46,927 nucleotides of DNA, taken from positions 1 through 46,927 of IMG/VR virus record IMGVR_UViG_3300018082_000002, one strand, 5' to 3'. Numbering within the stretch: position 1 is the first letter of the stretch; each line of letters starts with the position of its first letter. The translations under genes and the position numbers were made by a program. Under the pieces are notes generated by a model, which was given only the letters and a program-made list of their open reading frames with translations, was not told the DNA's origin and did no database searches. Positions 2,074 through 24,160 of the stretch are shown in pieces. Origin of the DNA: a virus.

Positions 2074-2276
2074 ATATAATACCAGACAATGGAATAACAA
2101 TATTAGACCCAACAATGGAAAAAAATGAAATAAGGATTATAAAATCTCACGCAGAGGTCTTGGGATTTGAAATAAAAAATGAAACAGGCAAACATTTATA
2201 TGTTGAAGTTGAATGGGATTATTCCTCGAAAGCTTCTGAGATTTACTCAATCAAGAAATTAATAATTAGGCAATGA
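2070..2276 (+). CDS. Small protein of unknown function
   Basis: The 68-residue acidic-to-neutral protein (starts MNIIPDNGITILD) has no recognised motif. It is locked between the zinc microprotein and the polymerase by ATGA overlaps on both sides. Alternating hydrophobic residues (IRIIKSHAEVLGFEI, LYVEVEW) suggest a small beta-rich fold. Confidence 0.6.
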   Translation: MNIIPDNGITILDPTMEKNEIRIIKSHAEVLGFEIKNETGKHLYVEVEWDYSSKASEIYSIKKLIIRQ

Positions 2277-4723
2277 TAGACGATAGACACAAAATATTAG
2301 TCCCAGGTAGGGGTTCAGTTTCTTCTAAGATAATTGTAGTTGGAGAAGCGCCGGCACAAAGAGAAATTGAAGAAGGAAAGTGTTTTGTTGGTCCATCAGG
2401 TCACCTATTAGATGAAATGTTAGATACTGTTGGAATAGATAAAAATGAAGTCTACTTCACAAATGCTATCAAATATATGCTAGGCCCATCAGAGGACCAA
2501 TATGGAAGAAAATATTCTCCACAATCAAGATGTGAACATATTGGACAAGACTGGAATGAGCAAATAGAATTTCTAGGAAATGAAATATCAGCACTAGACC
2601 CTAACATTATTATAGCACTTGGTGGCACAGCACTACAGGCATTATGCAATAAGCCTTTTAATAGTATTAGGAAGTGGCGTGGCTCCGTAATATTGGGAAT
2701 GGGACACAAAGTAATACCTACATTCCATCCTGCTGGATTATTTCATCAGAAAGACTCAGAAGAAAATAAGTATTGGATTAAGAATATAATTGAATTTGAC
2801 TTAGCAAGAGCACTTAAACAGTCCCAATTCAGAGAATTTAGGTATCCAGAAAGACTACTCCAAATCTGCTCTTCAACTGTGGATTTAACTAGATTTTTAG
2901 ATGACCATAGGTCAGAAGAATATCTAAGTATAGATATTGAAGCAATTAAATGCGTTCCAGTTTGTATAGGTTTAGCGTTTACTTCATGGCGTGGCATATC
3001 AGTTCCACTATGGGGAAAGACTGATATTTGTAAGATTTCAGATATGTCAGAAGCTGAACTGGTTAACATTTGGATGATTCTAGATAAACTACTGCGAGAC
3101 GAACGGTTTAAGAAAGTCGGTCAGAATTTCAAGTATGACCAAGATAAGATTAGAAGGTTAGGATTTAAGGTCAATAATTTCTATGCAGATACCATCCTAA
3201 TGAGTTCTTGTGTTAATCCAGAATTCCCAAAATCACTTGAATTTAACACTTCAATATACACCGAAGAACCTTATTACAAGGACGAGGGTGATGAGTTTAA
3301 TTATTCTAAGCATCCTATTTCTAACTTGTTCTACTATAACGCTCGTGATGCTTGCGTTACTGAGGAAGTTAGAGTTGGTCTCGATAAAGATTTATCTGAG
3401 CTTAACCTTAATAATTTCTATTATGACTTCTATCACAATTCTCACAGCCTTTTTCTTGATATCGAAAATTACGGAATAGCTATTGATGAGCAGGCGCGAG
3501 CAGATTTACTTCTGAAATACACACAATGGGAATTGAGACTTAAGTCAGACCTATACAAACTGACTGGAGTAGTAGTCAATCCCAATAGTCCTCAACAAGT
3601 AGCCAAACTTCTCTATGAAGTTTTTAGGTTGCCACTAAGAAAAGGAACTGGTGAGGAAGTTCTTACTGCAATATTAGCAAATACTGCTAAGAAACCAGAA
3701 CATATTCATGCGTTGAATATAATCCTAGAAGCGCGGCGCGTTAGAAAACAAAAAGGGACTTACATTTTAGCAAGGCCAGATTACGATGGTAGGATGAGAA
3801 CGTCTTATTTCATATGTGGTACTGAAACTGGCCGCCGTTCTACTCAAATGTTGAAACCACCCGTTCGTCCAGAAAAATGTGGTATTTCGTGGCATACCTT
3901 ATCTAAGCATGGTGATATAGGAAGTGACATTAGAAAGATGTATGTGCCTGATTCTAGCCTTATCTTTCTTAATTTAGACCAGAGTCAGGCCGAGGCGCGC
4001 ATCGTAGCACTGCTCTGTAACGACACCGAATTACTATCTCAGTTTGATAAAATTGACGTTCATGCTCTAATGGCTTCATATATATTCGGCGGTACTTGGT
4101 TTGACCACTCAAAGCAAAAACATGGACATGAAACTCCTGAGAGATTTATTGGTAAAACTGGAAAGCACATGACGAATTATGATGCTGGAAAGCATAAAGT
4201 AATGGAAACAATTAATACTGATGCTAGAAAATATGGTATTCCAATTAATATAAGTGAGTGGAAAGCTGGAAAAATCCTTGATACTTTGCATGAGAAGAAT
4301 CCAAAAATTAGGCAGATATTCCATACTGAAATACAAGCAATTGCTGGAAAAAGAATTTTGGAGAATCCTTTTGGGAGAAAAAGAATTTTTTACGAAAGAT
4401 ATGGAGATGATTTATTCAAGGAAATGTACGCTCATATTCCGCAAGCAACTGTTGCAGATAATACATTAAGGGCCATGCTAGATGTAAGAAAAGAATTTAG
4501 GAAACATGTTATTATAGTAGGAGAATCCCATGATGCTTTCTTGTGTCAAGTTGACAAACAGGAAATAGATGACTTAGCGCCGCAGATTAAATCTATAGTG
4601 GAAAAAGAAATAGATTTTAGTCAGTGCAGTTTACCACGAGGAAAGCTATTAATTCCTTGGGACCTCGAAATTGGTGAAAACTATAAAGATTTAAGCAAGT
4701 TGAAAATGGAGATAGCTGCATGA
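2273..4723 (+). CDS. Fusion of UDG-like domain and family A DNA polymerase with 3'-5' exonuclease
   Basis: The 816-residue replicative polymerase has three parts. Residues about 8-165 are a uracil-DNA-glycosylase-like domain (VVGEAPAQREIEEGKCFVGP near 22; TFHPAG near 150), but without the N-terminal CxxC of iron-sulphur family 4 enzymes. Residues about 215-365 hold the proofreading exonuclease, with all motifs present: SIDIEA (about 219), GQNFKYDQD (about 283), YNARDACV (about 356). Residues about 400-816 are the polymerase: motif A LNLDQSQAEAR (about 566), the motif B region around GKHMTNYDAGKHKV, and motif C GESHDAF (about 751). Motif C has HDA where HDE is usual, so the second carboxylate is missing. 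N-terminal UDG-like fusions are known in phage polymerases, e.g. SPO1. ATGA overlaps join it to both neighbours. Confidence 0.95.
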   Translation: MIDDRHKILVPGRGSVSSKIIVVGEAPAQREIEEGKCFVGPSGHLLDEMLDTVGIDKNEVYFTNAIKYMLGPSEDQYGRKYSPQSRCEHIGQDWNEQIEFLGNEISALDPNIIIALGGTALQALCNKPFNSIRKWRGSVILGMGHKVIPTFHPAGLFHQKDSEENKYWIKNIIEFDLARALKQSQFREFRYPERLLQICSSTVDLTRFLDDHRSEEYLSIDIEAIKCVPVCIGLAFTSWRGISVPLWGKTDICKISDMSEAELVNIWMILDKLLRDERFKKVGQNFKYDQDKIRRLGFKVNNFYADTILMSSCVNPEFPKSLEFNTSIYTEEPYYKDEGDEFNYSKHPISNLFYYNARDACVTEEVRVGLDKDLSELNLNNFYYDFYHNSHSLFLDIENYGIAIDEQARADLLLKYTQWELRLKSDLYKLTGVVVNPNSPQQVAKLLYEVFRLPLRKGTGEEVLTAILANTAKKPEHIHALNIILEARRVRKQKGTYILARPDYDGRMRTSYFICGTETGRRSTQMLKPPVRPEKCGISWHTLSKHGDIGSDIRKMYVPDSSLIFLNLDQSQAEARIVALLCNDTELLSQFDKIDVHALMASYIFGGTWFDHSKQKHGHETPERFIGKTGKHMTNYDAGKHKVMETINTDARKYGIPINISEWKAGKILDTLHEKNPKIRQIFHTEIQAIAGKRILENPFGRKRIFYERYGDDLFKEMYAHIPQATVADNTLRAMLDVRKEFRKHVIIVGESHDAFLCQVDKQEIDDLAPQIKSIVEKEIDFSQCSLPRGKLLIPWDLEIGENYKDLSKLKMEIAA

Positions 4724-4950
4724 TTCAATCAATATGTATAGAGTATAAGCAGATTGGAGCTGAATTTGAAAGATGGAAATTGTATAAATATGTTTCTATT
4801 CACGAGGAAGAATCTGGAACTTCCGAAATTCTTCTATTGAGAAAAGCTTTTGGAATTTTCTATGAATTTAGGGCTGTTGTATTTATAACTGAGCCAATAG
4901 CAATTAAGATATATAACAGAAAAATTCAAGATTGGGTAGAACAAAAATGA
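4720..4950 (+). CDS. Small protein of unknown function
   Basis: The 76-residue product overlaps the polymerase stop by ATGA, so it is probably translated from the same message. It is rich in alternating hydrophobic and charged residues (EILLLRKAFGIFYEFRAVVF), consistent with a small alpha/beta protein. No family was recognised. Confidence 0.6.
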   Translation: MIQSICIEYKQIGAEFERWKLYKYVSIHEEESGTSEILLLRKAFGIFYEFRAVVFITEPIAIKIYNRKIQDWVEQK

Positions 4951-5204
4951 ATCCACAAGATTTAATAGAACTTAGAGAACTATTAAGAAAGAAATTTAGA
5001 GAACATGATTTTTGTATTGGCGAAGAAGAAGTAGAAAAAGTATTTAGAGAACTTCTTAGTGAACCAGAACCAATTGAATCATCTAATCCAGGACCTGGTC
5101 TATCACCAGAAGAATTTTCTAGTTTAATGGAAACTCACATAAAAGATATTAAGAATGTATTTGATAAAGACAGCACTTTTTATAGATATATGACAAAGAA
5201 ATGA
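4947..5204 (+). CDS. Small acidic helical protein of unknown function
   Basis: The start at ATG 4947 overlaps the preceding stop (ATGA) and is preferred over the upstream in-frame ATG at 4932. The 85-residue protein is acidic and probably helical (LIELRELLRKKFREHDF, EEVEKVFRELL), with a Pro/Ser linker (PEPIESSNPGPGLSPEE). No family was recognised. Confidence 0.6.
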   Translation: MNPQDLIELRELLRKKFREHDFCIGEEEVEKVFRELLSEPEPIESSNPGPGLSPEEFSSLMETHIKDIKNVFDKDSTFYRYMTKK

Positions 5205-5396: not shown

Positions 5397-5550
5397 ATGC
5401 CCATTTTGCAAAAATGATAGAGAAGATTTAATAGAGAAAGTAAGTGAATATAAACCATTTGAACTAGACAAGGGAAAGAAAGTTAGAATCATAACATATC
5501 TATGTGTGGTTTGTAGTAGGGAATTTGATATAGACCATGAGACAGAATAA
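5386..5550 (+). CDS. Zinc-ribbon small protein with TTG start
   Basis: The frame 5386-5550 encodes 54 residues with CPFCKND near residue 5 and CVVCSREFD near residue 41, a two-knuckle zinc ribbon. The TTG at 5386 has GGAG seven bases upstream; no in-frame ATG precedes the first cysteine pair, so TTG is inferred as the start. The stop overlaps the next ATG (TAATG), supporting coupled translation. Confidence 0.6.
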   Translation: MEIRCPFCKNDREDLIEKVSEYKPFELDKGKKVRIITYLCVVCSREFDIDHETE

Positions 5551-6740
5551 TGTCGTGGTTAAGCTTGCTTTTGGAACAAGTAAAGGAATATGAAAGTCCT
5601 ACTCCATTCTGGTATTGGTCGGGTCTTTCCACCTTAAGCGCCATCGCAAAAGATAGAGTATGGGTTGAAAGAAGTGGAAACCTTCAGGTATACCTTAACA
5701 TATATGTCCTACTTTTTGGACGTAGTGGAATTAGGAAAGGCCCACCAATAAACCTAGCAAAAGAGTTAGTAAAGAAGATTGGAAATACAAGAGTAATTTC
5801 AGGTAGGAGTTCAGTTGAAGCAATCGTAGAAGATTTAAAAGAAGTTCAGACTGACCAAGCTAGAAAAACAATTTTAACGGATTCATGCGGATTCATAGTA
5901 TCATCAGAATTTTCCAGTGGAATAGTCAGAAGTGAACAAGCCCTTACGACTTTGACAAATCTGTATGATAGACGATACAATGAAGGAGCATTTGATATTA
6001 GATTAATAAGAACAGGAAAGCAGACCTTAAAAAGTCCGACTATAACCATGTTAGGTGGTATAAATGAAGCACATTTTCAAAGTTTTATGGAAGACAAGGA
6101 TATAACAGGTGGATTCCTTGGTAGAACATTTGTAATCCATGCCAATGAAAAGAACAGAATTAATTCATTAATGTTTGAAATGGAGAATAAGATTGATGAG
6201 GAAAAACTGCTAGAGCACTTAAAGCTAGTCGAGAAGTTAAAGGGTCCATTGATAATTAGTGATGCTGGAAAAGTAACATATAATGCGTGGTATAATGACT
6301 TTTATAATGCTAATGTTGAGGACAAAACCGGAACACATGAAAGAATTGGAGATAGTGCCCTTAAAATCGCGGGTCTACTAAGTCTATCAAATGGAATCTC
6401 AATGGAAGTAACTCAGAAAGAAATAATGACTGGAATTGAGATGGCTGAGAAGTTAATTAATTCTGCGCGGCACGTAACTTTTACTTTACATGAAGAGGAA
6501 AGTCTATCCACTTTAAAAAAGAAGATATTGAAAATTCTGGTCAAGCGGCAAGACCACAAAATTACTGCAAGAAAGTTACTAGCAGAAATGCACGGAGTGA
6601 TGAACGCAGATGATTTAGTCAAGATTGGAGAGACACTTCAGCAAGGAGGATTAATCGACATCTATATGTTTGGAGATAATGTTATATATGAGATGAAAGA
6701 GGAAATAGTTAAAAAGCTTCAACACGCTATAGGAGAATAA
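5550..6740 (+). CDS. DUF3987-like ATPase, putative helicase/primase
   Basis: The 396-residue protein has the general plan of phage DUF3987 proteins. An N-terminal ESPTPFWYWSGLSTLSAIAK segment is followed by FGRSGIRKGPP near residue 58, where a P-loop is expected. Later come SSEFSSG near 118, TLTNLYDRRYNEGAF near 135, TMLGGINEAHF near 165 and GGFLGRTFV near 183. The P-loop is unusual (GRSGIRKGPP rather than GxxGxGKS/T). A C-terminal winged-helix-like region (residues about 320-390) may bind DNA. No other replicative helicase or primase was found, so it is the best candidate; this is inference. Confidence 0.65.
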   Translation: MSWLSLLLEQVKEYESPTPFWYWSGLSTLSAIAKDRVWVERSGNLQVYLNIYVLLFGRSGIRKGPPINLAKELVKKIGNTRVISGRSSVEAIVEDLKEVQTDQARKTILTDSCGFIVSSEFSSGIVRSEQALTTLTNLYDRRYNEGAFDIRLIRTGKQTLKSPTITMLGGINEAHFQSFMEDKDITGGFLGRTFVIHANEKNRINSLMFEMENKIDEEKLLEHLKLVEKLKGPLIISDAGKVTYNAWYNDFYNANVEDKTGTHERIGDSALKIAGLLSLSNGISMEVTQKEIMTGIEMAEKLINSARHVTFTLHEEESLSTLKKKILKILVKRQDHKITARKLLAEMHGVMNADDLVKIGETLQQGGLIDIYMFGDNVIYEMKEEIVKKLQHAIGE

Positions 6741-6741
6741 T

Positions 6742-6975
6742 ATGTTTGATAAGTACATACTAGAACAAGTTAGAAAAGACGCAGCAGAATATTTGGATGA
6801 ATCAATATACCCTAAAGTAGAGGTATTAGTTACAAACTATTTAGAGAAGATAATAGAAGATAGAGTTAGAGATGTTGCAAAGCAATTTTTTAAGGATAGG
6901 AATGAAGAGCTAGCTAAGACTCTCATTAAAATAATTGAATTATTAGCCATTGATAGGCTAAATAAAGGAGAATGA
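6742..6975 (+). CDS. Small helical protein of unknown function
   Basis: A good AGGAGAATAAT ribosome binding site precedes the ATG, and that leader recurs ahead of several genes here. The 77-residue protein is highly charged and predicted helical throughout (YLEKIIEDRVRDVAKQFFKD), possibly a coiled coil. No family was recognised. Confidence 0.6.
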   Translation: MFDKYILEQVRKDAAEYLDESIYPKVEVLVTNYLEKIIEDRVRDVAKQFFKDRNEELAKTLIKIIELLAIDRLNKGE

Positions 6976-6976
6976 T

Positions 6977-7207
6977 ATGCGCTGCAAGTTAACGCTGAAG
7001 AATAGTGAAACAGTTTTTACTTATGACTTAGATAAATTAGAATACGTAAAAAATGATGGCGAAGGAAATGAATATCTAATGGTATCTGGTATGCCCTTGA
7101 AACAAGTGACTAATAATGAATTTCCATTATCCAGAGGCAAAGTATTTGATAAATTCATATTTGGGTCCAAAACTGGCACTCCACCAAATACAATAGAATT
7201 TTATTAG
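6977..7207 (+). CDS. Small protein of unknown function
   Basis: The 76-residue product (MRCKLTLKNSETVFTYDLDK...) begins just after the preceding stop, with AGGAGAATGAT upstream. It looks beta-rich. No family was recognised. It shares the operon with the capsid-like mini gene that follows. Confidence 0.6.
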   Translation: MRCKLTLKNSETVFTYDLDKLEYVKNDGEGNEYLMVSGMPLKQVTNNEFPLSRGKVFDKFIFGSKTGTPPNTIEFY

Positions 7208-7216
7208 GAGAATAAT

Positions 7217-7552
7217 ATGAACTACCAAATAAACTTTGACCCAAATGGTGGAGATTTAGGTAGGGCAGAAATAAAGCCTATTTCACCACTGGAATTTCAG
7301 TTACTAGTGCCACACATAGCACACATACTAGAATGTTTACACATAGCTGGATTATCAAGATTACCATTCAAATATGCATTTGAGTTTCCTCTACATGTGA
7401 GAGACCAAGTATTTCTATCAATGTTAACTATGAAATTACCATCACACGTAAAATTTTATGAATGTGATGGAAAGAAGTTATTTGAAATGCGAGGTGCTAG
7501 TGGGGGAGTAGTTAGTGGTTTAGTCTGTTATCTAATAACAACAGGAGAATAA
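7217..7552 (+). CDS. Miniature paralogue of the phage's major capsid protein (early-arm gene)
   Basis: The 111-residue protein carries two segments also present in the major capsid protein encoded at 22913-24160. FDPNGGDLGR at residues 7-16 matches capsid FDANGGDLGR in 9 of 10 positions. FYECDGKKLFEMRGASGGV at about residues 80-98 matches capsid FYTTDGRKIFEIRGASGGV in 14 of 19. Codons differ at many synonymous sites, so this is an old, selectively maintained similarity, not a recent copy. The middle (about residues 20-78) is unrelated by eye. It has a good AGGAGAATAAT site and sits in the early arm on the opposite strand to the capsid gene. A capsid-assembly modulator, decoy or relic are all possible. 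Confidence 0.65.
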   Translation: MNYQINFDPNGGDLGRAEIKPISPLEFQLLVPHIAHILECLHIAGLSRLPFKYAFEFPLHVRDQVFLSMLTMKLPSHVKFYECDGKKLFEMRGASGGVVSGLVCYLITTGE

Positions 7553-7553
7553 T

Positions 7554-7733
7554 ATGGCAGATGATAAAGGACACATCAATTTAATTATTGATTTAGGAAA
7601 TTTATTGGAGGAGGCCAGAGAATATCAATTCCATGATTTCAAAAATAGAGACTAAGCTACTCCAAAAGTAGAGTTACACAGGAAGTTACTAGAAATTGAT
7701 AGGAAAATGCAGGAAGGAAAGTATGACAACTAA
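7554..7733 (+). pseudogene. Small gene interrupted by an in-frame TAA
   Basis: From ATG 7554 the frame encodes 33 residues ending ...YQFHDFKNRD at TAA 7653-7655. The same frame then stays open for 25 codons (ATPKVELHRKLLEIDRK...YDN) to TAA 7731-7733. Together they read as one 59-residue phage protein of the 'HDF...YATPK...L...DYDN' type, in which a Tyr codon (TAT/TAC) would stand where TAA now lies. A point nonsense change, a sequencing error, or an active 33-residue short form are possible. Other genes here use all three stop codons, so recoding is unlikely. Confidence 0.6.
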
Positions 7734-7947
7734 TATGAATCCACTAAAGATTACTTGGAGAGATAAATTACGGAATTGGATTGGTATGTTCTTCTATAAA
7801 AGATTGGGAGTCAAAGCAGGTCCATTTATGTTTCATTCTAGAGGAGAATGGTGGTTCATAGACCATATTGGTAATATCTGGATTATCAGATATACTGGAC
7901 GCGTAGAAAACTGCCCTCTGCAAATAACACTATTTCACAAAATATAG
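7723..7947 (+). CDS. Small basic Trp-rich protein of unknown function
   Basis: ATG 7723 follows AGGAAGG at ideal spacing and is preferred over the longer in-frame start at 7696. The 74-residue product is basic and rich in aromatics (RNWIGMFFYKRLGV, GEWWFIDHIGNIWIIRYTG), suggesting a small beta or membrane-surface protein. It overlaps the end of the interrupted gene by 11 bases. Confidence 0.55.
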   Translation: MTTNMNPLKITWRDKLRNWIGMFFYKRLGVKAGPFMFHSRGEWWFIDHIGNIWIIRYTGRVENCPLQITLFHKI

Positions 7948-22912: not shown

Positions 22913-24160
22913 CTAGTAGCCAGAAGGCACTTGAAGTGCATCAATATAAGCAGTTGCCGCTGGATTTGATACAAAGGTCTGCATTCCATTGACCATGTAG
23001 AAAATATCAGCAGCAGCCACACCACCACTTGCACCGCGGATTTCAAAAATCTTTCTACCATCAGTTGTATAGAAACCAATTGGAAGAATTTCCGCTCGGC
23101 CCCATACATCAGAAACTACAAAGTCAACCCTCTTCTTGTCCCAGTTATAAGATACATGAACTGGAGCGCCAGCCATTTGCATCTTATCAAAGTACATATC
23201 TAAAGCTTCTTCTTTTGGTTGCTTCCAGATTACGCTTACGAGTTGACCAATTTCCTCATAGGCTTGTTTTTGCGCTGGATGCATCCAAGCATTTGGCTTA
23301 AAGTTATGGTCAATTCCTACACGATTTCCAATCTTATTAATTGCCAGTCTTGGAAGTGGTAGTGTTAGTGCTGAATTACCACCATTTACTCTATTGGACC
23401 TGATTTCTGGTGTTGAACTCCTTGAAAATCCTAACCAAGTTCCACTAGAAGCATTTGAATGATGATATGGCACACCAAACAATGCAGGAAGTGAGGCTGG
23501 AGAGGAAATACCATCAGTTACTAATACATCAGTTGCTACTGCACCAGCAACAGCAGGAGTTACATCAATGGTTTTGTTTTCAACATCCCATTTGGTAATA
23601 GTTCCCTTGCCGCGTAAGGTAGCAAGAGTAGTATCAAATACTTGAACAGTTTGACCAAAGCGCGTTAAACGAGCGCCAAAGCCATCAGATGTTAGAGTAT
23701 AAGTATCTGTCCCAGAAGCAGTTACTACAGTAGTAATAGTTCCAATGACTCCAGTTCCAGATTGCATCATTTGAGCGTCTAATTGACGCCTCAATTCATC
23801 AAGAGCAGTTGCCGTCAATCTACGAACTGCATTAGTGATTGCTTTACGGTCATCATCGGTAGCCCACTGTGTTAATTTCGTGTATTCAATATTCTCTGAA
23901 ACGAATACAGTTGATACCACAGCCTTATCCCAAGTTGGACCACCACCGCGACCTAAGTCACCACCATTAGCATCGAAATACTGAAATGAACCACCAGGAC
24001 GTAATTCAAGAGGAACACGCATTTGACGATTTGAAATTCGTTCCACATCACGTTTTTGAATCGTGGCATAAAACTTATCGTCTCTCTCAAAAAGAACACG
24101 AATTTTAGGAATAACTCTCTCAAGTTCTAAAGCCACAACTTGAGATTCAACTACAGCCAT
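22913..24160 (-). CDS. Major capsid protein (HK97-type)
   Basis: ATG 24160 is preferred over GTG 24169 because AGGTG lies seven bases upstream of it. The 415-residue protein follows the scaffold gene. It has an N-arm (QMRVPLELRPGGSFQYFDAN; FDANGGDLGR at about 62-71), a spine helix region with DDDRKAITNAVRRLTATALD, and a C-terminal A-domain part with FYTTDGRKIFEIRGASGGV (about 363-381). Its two segments FDANGGDLGR and the DG-K-FE-RGASGGV block recur in the 111-residue early gene at 7217. Confidence 0.88.
   Translation of the reverse strand: MAVVESQVVALELERVIPKIRVLFERDDKFYATIQKRDVERISNRQMRVPLELRPGGSFQYFDANGGDLGRGGGPTWDKAVVSTVFVSENIEYTKLTQWATDDDRKAITNAVRRLTATALDELRRQLDAQMMQSGTGVIGTITTVVTASGTDTYTLTSDGFGARLTRFGQTVQVFDTTLATLRGKGTITKWDVENKTIDVTPAVAGAVATDVLVTDGISSPASLPALFGVPYHHSNASSGTWLGFSRSSTPEIRSNRVNGGNSALTLPLPRLAINKIGNRVGIDHNFKPNAWMHPAQKQAYEEIGQLVSVIWKQPKEEALDMYFDKMQMAGAPVHVSYNWDKKRVDFVVSDVWGRAEILPIGFYTTDGRKIFEIRGASGGVAAADIFYMVNGMQTFVSNPAATAYIDALQVPSGY

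Follow-up and report, generated by a model that had tools for sequence, protein, structure and literature searches.

A small gene in a phage replication module carries two segments of the phage's own major capsid protein and might act as a decoy

The window analysed here, a viral DNA stretch of 46,927 nucleotides (IMG/VR record IMGVR_UViG_3300018082_000002, positions 1 to 46,927), contains a gene of 111 codons on the plus strand (7217-7552) whose product, called mini below, carries two blocks of the phage's own major capsid protein (MCP; 22913-24160, minus strand). Judged by sequence comparison, mini belongs to a larger group of MCP-segment genes that had been overlooked in the earlier note in which the gene was first picked out. 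It is fairly probable that tailed phages of different capsid families carry unrecognised early accessory genes displaying contact segments of their own MCP on interchangeable carriers, as decoys or as interface blockers in conflicts that turn on the recognition of MCP. For mini itself the best explanation, put forward tentatively, is that of a decoy for capsid-sensing defences.

Two capsid blocks in a 111-residue protein

The product of 22913-24160 (415 amino acids) has the HK97 fold of a major capsid protein: its AlphaFold model (mean pLDDT 74.7) has 203 PDB matches at E<=0.001, including HK97, cyanophage A-1(L), Mic1 and others, and its sequence matches PHROG 14242 (major head protein) at E=2e-6. 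A profile sequence search of the PDB returned chance matches only and INPHARED gave none; IMG/VR holds 268 relatives, of which the best 80 were kept. Only two relatives fell in genome bins, one a Bacteroidetes MAG and one a Pacearchaeota MAG, too few for a host to be called and possibly the result of binning errors. Predicted strands at MCP residues 47-54 and 76-94, followed by a long helix at 106-130, mark the E-loop, with its tip at residues 55-75, and the C-terminal strand region 353-397 is the expected P-domain with the P-loop; both assignments rest on predicted secondary structure and topology rather than measured contacts. The N-arm covers residues 1 to about 45, and its residues 6-42 (24035-24145, minus strand) are the segment most often copied in relatives.

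Block 1 of mini, FDPNGGDLGR (residues 7-16; 7235-7264, plus strand), agrees at 9 of 10 positions with FDANGGDLGR, MCP residues 62-71 (23948-23977, minus strand), which would place it in the predicted E-loop tip. Block 2, FYECDGKKLFEMRGASGGV (residues 80-98; 7454-7510, plus strand), agrees at 14 of 19 positions with FYTTDGRKIFEIRGASGGV, MCP residues 363-381 (23018-23074, minus strand), which would lie in the predicted P-domain hairpin region, and the similarity runs on to mini residue 107. Both open reading frames and both blocks, with their counts of identities, thus read exactly as they had been described from the sequence. The accompanying remark that synonymous sites differ is also right, because codons are identical at only four of the nine identical residues of block 1 and seven of the 14 of block 2; within the blocks the DNA is no more than 72-73% identical. 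In some relatives the intervening stretch also aligns in part to MCP, weakly and ungapped, and the C-terminal half of mini therefore corresponds, roughly, to MCP 330-396.

That so short a resemblance might be due to chance, or to a general motif, is a natural objection, block 1 on its own being merely 10 residues long, and the earlier note had proposed alignment statistics against shuffled sequences as a check. Mini and MCP align by BLASTP with 40.8 bits (E=1e-9), and in Smith-Waterman alignment they score 90, where the best of 5000 shuffles reached 56; residues 1-20 of mini by themselves score 50, a value matched by none of 5000. Among the window's open reading frames, profiles built from 83 MCPs recover mini with domain E-values of 7.5e-10 (block 2) and 0.0036 (block 1), and the full MCP profile recovers it at E=8e-9 among 33,206 frames, with none of the reversed frames of that set at E<=0.1. 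Shuffles and reversed controls, together with the retention of both blocks in seven family members and the existence of independently copied segments, exclude chance or a general motif, to which we attach practically no credence.

The description of mini as a miniature of the capsid protein stands only in part. The AlphaFold model (pLDDT 79.6) comprises a confident domain, with helices at residues 24-44 and 59-71 and strands at 52-58, 78-80, 89-92 and 99-108, and a disordered tail, residues 1-17, that holds block 1. The order of these elements resembles the C-terminal region of MCP; against this, the folded part has no capsid match, a Foldseek search with the model against solved and viral structures having returned nothing significant, and block 1 is predicted to be disordered. 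Mini lacks the full HK97 fold, with its spine helix, A-domain, P-domain and E-loop; its MCP-like parts correspond only to MCP residues 62-76 and about 330-396.

The mini family, its locus and the wider set of MCP-segment genes

Full-length alignments with mini, at 45-67% identity, were obtained for six homologues from other phages (L001, L099, L227, L100, L087 and L102), all of which keep both blocks. Homologues that pair with a capsid gene, as the earlier note had suggested looking for, were found in four MCP-bearing records: among the contigs of L001, L087, L099, L102 and L100, MCP lies in the same record for L001 (G001), L087 (G027), L099 (G048) and L102 (G050), and none was seen on the short contig of L100. 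Invariant across the family are FxPxGGDxGR, PH, KY, FE and Y-DG...F...GG, which combine the MCP-like blocks with a family-specific core. The residues common to minis and MCP rank among the most conserved of MCP, whose blocks are near-identical across relatives. Selection at the protein level, as first proposed for the blocks, is borne out by a dN/dS of ~0.14-0.34 for the homologue pairs computed, which is purifying. In another protein (L103:5086-5448, record G051) the order is reversed, with block 2 close to the N-terminus and block 1 at the extreme C-terminus, once more at a protein end, so the two blocks occur together whichever comes first. When MCPs were ranked by similarity, the own MCP of the phages compared came 3rd, 36th, 20th, 2nd and 27th of 57 (G050 left out), and minis are closer to one another than to any MCP. 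A recent duplication of the phage's own capsid gene was therefore rejected, similarity to the own MCP not being specially high; that the blocks do not track it is as expected of a copied common conserved feature.

Mini lies on the replication strand opposite MCP, beside the DNA polymerase (2273-4723, plus strand), a marker of the early replication module, and the primase/helicase (DUF3987; 5550-6740, plus strand) that adjoins the MCP-segment genes. The earlier note's placement of the gene on the early strand thus holds, and mini is presumably expressed early. In the near-complete contigs looked at, the MCP-segment genes are likewise mostly on the strand of the polymerase, primase and helicase, opposite MCP, and mostly inside or adjoining the polymerase-primase cluster; the exceptions, on the MCP strand, are the swapped-order gene of G051 and two genes of G072. 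As some contigs were chosen for their matches to the mini profile, prevalence can be read only from those selected by MCP, and six of the 14 near-complete contigs fetched solely for their MCP have a strong MCP-segment gene.

The sister phage G002, with an MCP 99% identical and locus DNA about 87-93% identical, is without mini, and the sequences corresponding to window positions 6729-7219 and 7543-7738 are contiguous in it. The sequence AGGAGAATAATATG, a ribosome-binding site with start, stands at the upstream edge of mini (7206-7219, plus strand) and again at its downstream edge (7543-7556, plus strand), where it also encodes the last codons of mini (GE, stop); in the sister phage the flanking genes are joined at one near-identical site, AGGAGAATAACATG. 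These edges suggest that mini is a single-gene cassette that comes and goes at ribosome-binding sites. The gene after mini (7553-7654) is shortened to 33 amino acids by a TAA, compared with a 59-residue copy in the sister phage (G002 38493-38672). Elsewhere in the early arm the products of two adjacent genes, 1168-1560 and 1562-1981, belong to the YspA/SLOG family and contain a NADAR domain, respectively. NADAR proteins are known from phage counter-defence, and the pair is suggestive of a counter-defence function related to NAD or ADP-ribose.

With the MCP profile, about 20-25 small proteins carrying MCP segments were found in relatives, in the contigs fetched; among short complete open reading frames other than MCPs, 21 reached a domain E<0.05 as against none of the reversed frames. 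The mini family, with MCP 62-76 and about 330-396, forms one class (a). A second (b) carries the N-arm, residues about 6-62, in most cases preceded by a leader of the type MNRRxFLKxL...DIDRLLWVPGxKxIFLP (L192:18886-19188, E=6e-15, is an example), and in two phages (L226, L219) at the C-terminus of a zinc-ribbon-like protein. A third (c) has MCP 222-257 behind a leader of the class b type or a shorter one (L159, L099:6012-6278, L028, L253:5164-5508); in L253 an N-arm gene and a 222-257 gene stand back to back. The carriers, the Tat-like LLWVPG leader and the zinc-ribbon among them, are mutually unrelated. A scan of IMG/VR with the leader gave 28 stretches, mostly with the N-arm segment. The leader (RRxFL then LLWxPGxKxIFLP) is absent from mini and from every open reading frame of the window, and Tat profile scores of the leader class were below the cut-off.

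The same architecture is met outside this capsid family. Phage L228 has a P22-type coat protein as its own MCP (Pfam P22_CoatProtein, E=2e-9) and an LLWVPG-type leader fused to LTIDIITREALRVLENNLQFARVVNRQYEDRW, which matches the N-termini of P22-type coats in public phages (best E=2e-6) and resembles the start of the L228 MCP, TLLTISMITREALRILENNLAFTKRINRQYDDKF. As a control, 18 proteins of the window were used as profiles, and MCP alone clearly yielded short complete open reading frames with its pieces. The idea that all structural proteins are copied likewise was dropped, since the short hits of the 17 others were, two weak matches aside (E 0.004 and 0.002), neighbouring genes or pieces of the real gene truncated at contig ends. 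Segment copying thus seems, at this level of scrutiny, to be specific to MCP.

A further, weaker candidate lies in the window itself. The gene 4947-5204 (plus strand, 85 amino acids), between polymerase and primase, encodes a product whose C-terminus, KDIKNVFDKDSTFYRYMTKK, resembles the MCP N-arm, PKIRVLFERDDKFYATIQKR. After profile iteration it reached E=0.012 among 36,720 open reading frames, where the best reversed value was 1.8, and E=0.005 in the contig set; 18 of 5000 shuffles scored as high against the MCP N-terminus, and the sister phage has a 67% identical copy. It is likely, though not proven, to be a second MCP-segment gene.

In agreement with the earlier note, which knew of no described family, mini had no match above cut-offs in Pfam, PHROGs or NCBIfam, nor any sequence match in the PDB, INPHARED phages, PLSDB plasmids or a pattern-limited genome scan. 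No account of phage-encoded MCP-segment proteins was found in the open-access literature, which misses most subscription journals, so that this absence is not proof of novelty. Decoys and interference with assembly are familiar ideas; the class of genes is, as far as we can tell, new.

Decoy, assembly interference and other possible roles

The earlier note had guessed at regulation of capsid assembly, the blocking of a competing phage or a decoy for host sensors, all of which are possible. Unrelated carriers preserve residues that are conserved in MCP, from which we infer that mini binds a partner of MCP; that this partner is a host immune sensor is the least certain step. As a decoy, mini would be an accessory early mimic of two conserved, predicted contact elements of MCP, in which a flexible tail displays the E-loop tip and a small folded domain the P-domain hairpin, and would be one of several kinds of early gene bearing different MCP segments in this phage group. 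It would bind a host protein that recognises MCP and occupy that sensor before MCP accumulates, giving an anti-defence effect.

MCP has repeatedly been found as the trigger of bacterial immune proteins, and Lit and PifA are among those that recognise it. Likewise CapRel binds MCP, which triggers CapRel (PMC9712102), and escape mutations from Thoeris map to the P-loop and E-loop of MCP, loops of different monomers that associate with one another (PMC11312562). These would be the two elements joined in mini. A recognisable copy of the sensed feature, which a decoy should offer, is found in the blocks conserved in seven minis. The tentative decoy reading is further favoured by an MCP-specific similarity beyond chance with several segments on several unrelated carriers, by the position of the genes, mostly on the replication strand beside polymerase or primase, and by a patchy, cassette-like presence, even relative to a sister with a 99% identical MCP, combined with purifying selection. 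The NADAR and SLOG-family genes of the same arm are consistent with counter-defence cargo, and indifference of the blocks to the own MCP would be expected if a common conserved feature were copied. Against it, Thoeris is reported to sense assembled hexamers, which a 111-residue protein may not imitate, and the Tat-like leader of the sister class would point to membrane association or export, hard to square with a cytosolic sensor. The swapped-order gene of G051 and the genes of G072, on the MCP strand, also count against it, and the copied parts are predicted self-assembly contacts of MCP as well, which fits an assembly competitor equally.

Since the copied parts are predicted to be the E-loop tip, P-domain hairpin and N-arm, regions where capsid subunits touch, mini could cap subunits, blocking competitors or delaying the phage's own assembly. 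The first of these options is the main rival to the decoy, if itself on the unlikely side: mini would enter the contact between E-loop and P-domain and so block the capsids of co-infecting relatives or of capsid-stealing elements. The copied elements would bind neighbouring subunits, to judge from predicted topology and the reported loop association (PMC11312562), mini would hold both sides of one contact, and the gene is accessory, patchy and not tuned to the own MCP; assembly-blocking defence also exists, and the effect would be comparable to that of a prophage blocker of virion assembly (PMC10884400). Yet early production would poison the phage's own assembly too unless its MCP outnumbers mini, and the blocks are so nearly identical across relatives that these residues cannot separate self from non-self. 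The second option, a self-regulator or chaperone that acts as an early inhibitor later titrated out, or that holds scaffold or protease until late, would draw on the same contact elements, the place of the gene in the replication module and purifying selection. A core assembly factor would hardly be expected to be patchy even between phages with 99% identical MCPs, to vary from phage to phage in the segment copied and not to track the own MCP, and gene position makes such a role less likely too; we regard it as improbable. Slightly more improbable still is the reading in which captured MCP fragments serve as generic modules for folding or binding, without any current connection with the capsid. 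The lack of a capsid-like Foldseek match for the folded domain of mini speaks for such reuse, as do the block-2-like DG-turn beta-hairpins of a 74-92 residue gene near MCP in some relatives, whereas the shared residues are among the most conserved of MCP and both blocks survive in the swapped-order protein, a pattern that selection for a generic fold would leave unaccounted for.

If the MCP-segment genes are decoys, each copied segment hints at what a host sensor recognises, and phage genomes would amount to an epitope map of MCP and a route to sensors yet to be found; should they instead block assembly, phages would encode interference factors derived from capsids. In both cases, small early genes of unknown function could be annotated through comparison with the structural proteins of the same phage.

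Related systems and further observations

P4 Sid and other satellite proteins that redirect capsids or alter their size are small, bind MCP and alter assembly; they are encoded by satellites and are not MCP fragments, and no sequence relation to mini was found. A piece of a structural protein is reused against related viruses in animal Fv1 and endogenous Gag fragments, which are host-encoded and retroviral and offer a functional analogy only. A prophage blocker of virion assembly (PMC10884400) is, like mini, a small accessory phage protein, and such a protein could act on assembly. To our knowledge it is no copy of a structural protein. CapRel (PMC9712102), Thoeris ThsB1/B2 (PMC11312562), Lit/Gol and PifA likewise centre on MCP recognition during infection, the Thoeris escape sites falling in the pair of loops that mini would join, but these are host sensors, whereas here it is the phage that encodes MCP-like pieces. 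Also comparable are the Tat-like LLWVPGxKTIFLP small proteins of related phages, which carry the MCP N-arm or 222-257, and from which mini differs in having no leader.

Several genes of the related phages deserve mention in their own right. In L228 two LLWVPG-leader genes stand in tandem (2630-2932 and 3184-3615), the first being that with the P22-type coat N-terminus and the second having a C-terminal part without identification. Two more LLWVPG-leader proteins (L190:19410-19676 and L239:7080-7334) have C-terminal parts that score nothing against this MCP and may copy other proteins or diverged segments. A 152-residue protein (L136:9839-10294), from a phage with a distant MCP (38%), has a block-2-like YECGGKSLFPVYGMSGG followed further on by DGGDMGLQG, which is the arrangement of the swapped-order L103 protein. 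The 74-92 residue gene downstream of MCP in some relatives (L002:13129-13353, L045:11649-11876, L073:11062-11337) ends in a block-2-like hairpin, VRWYQTDGRQLFEIRDSNG; it resembles block 2 only, weakly at first pass, and is inserted in the sister phage and absent from the window.
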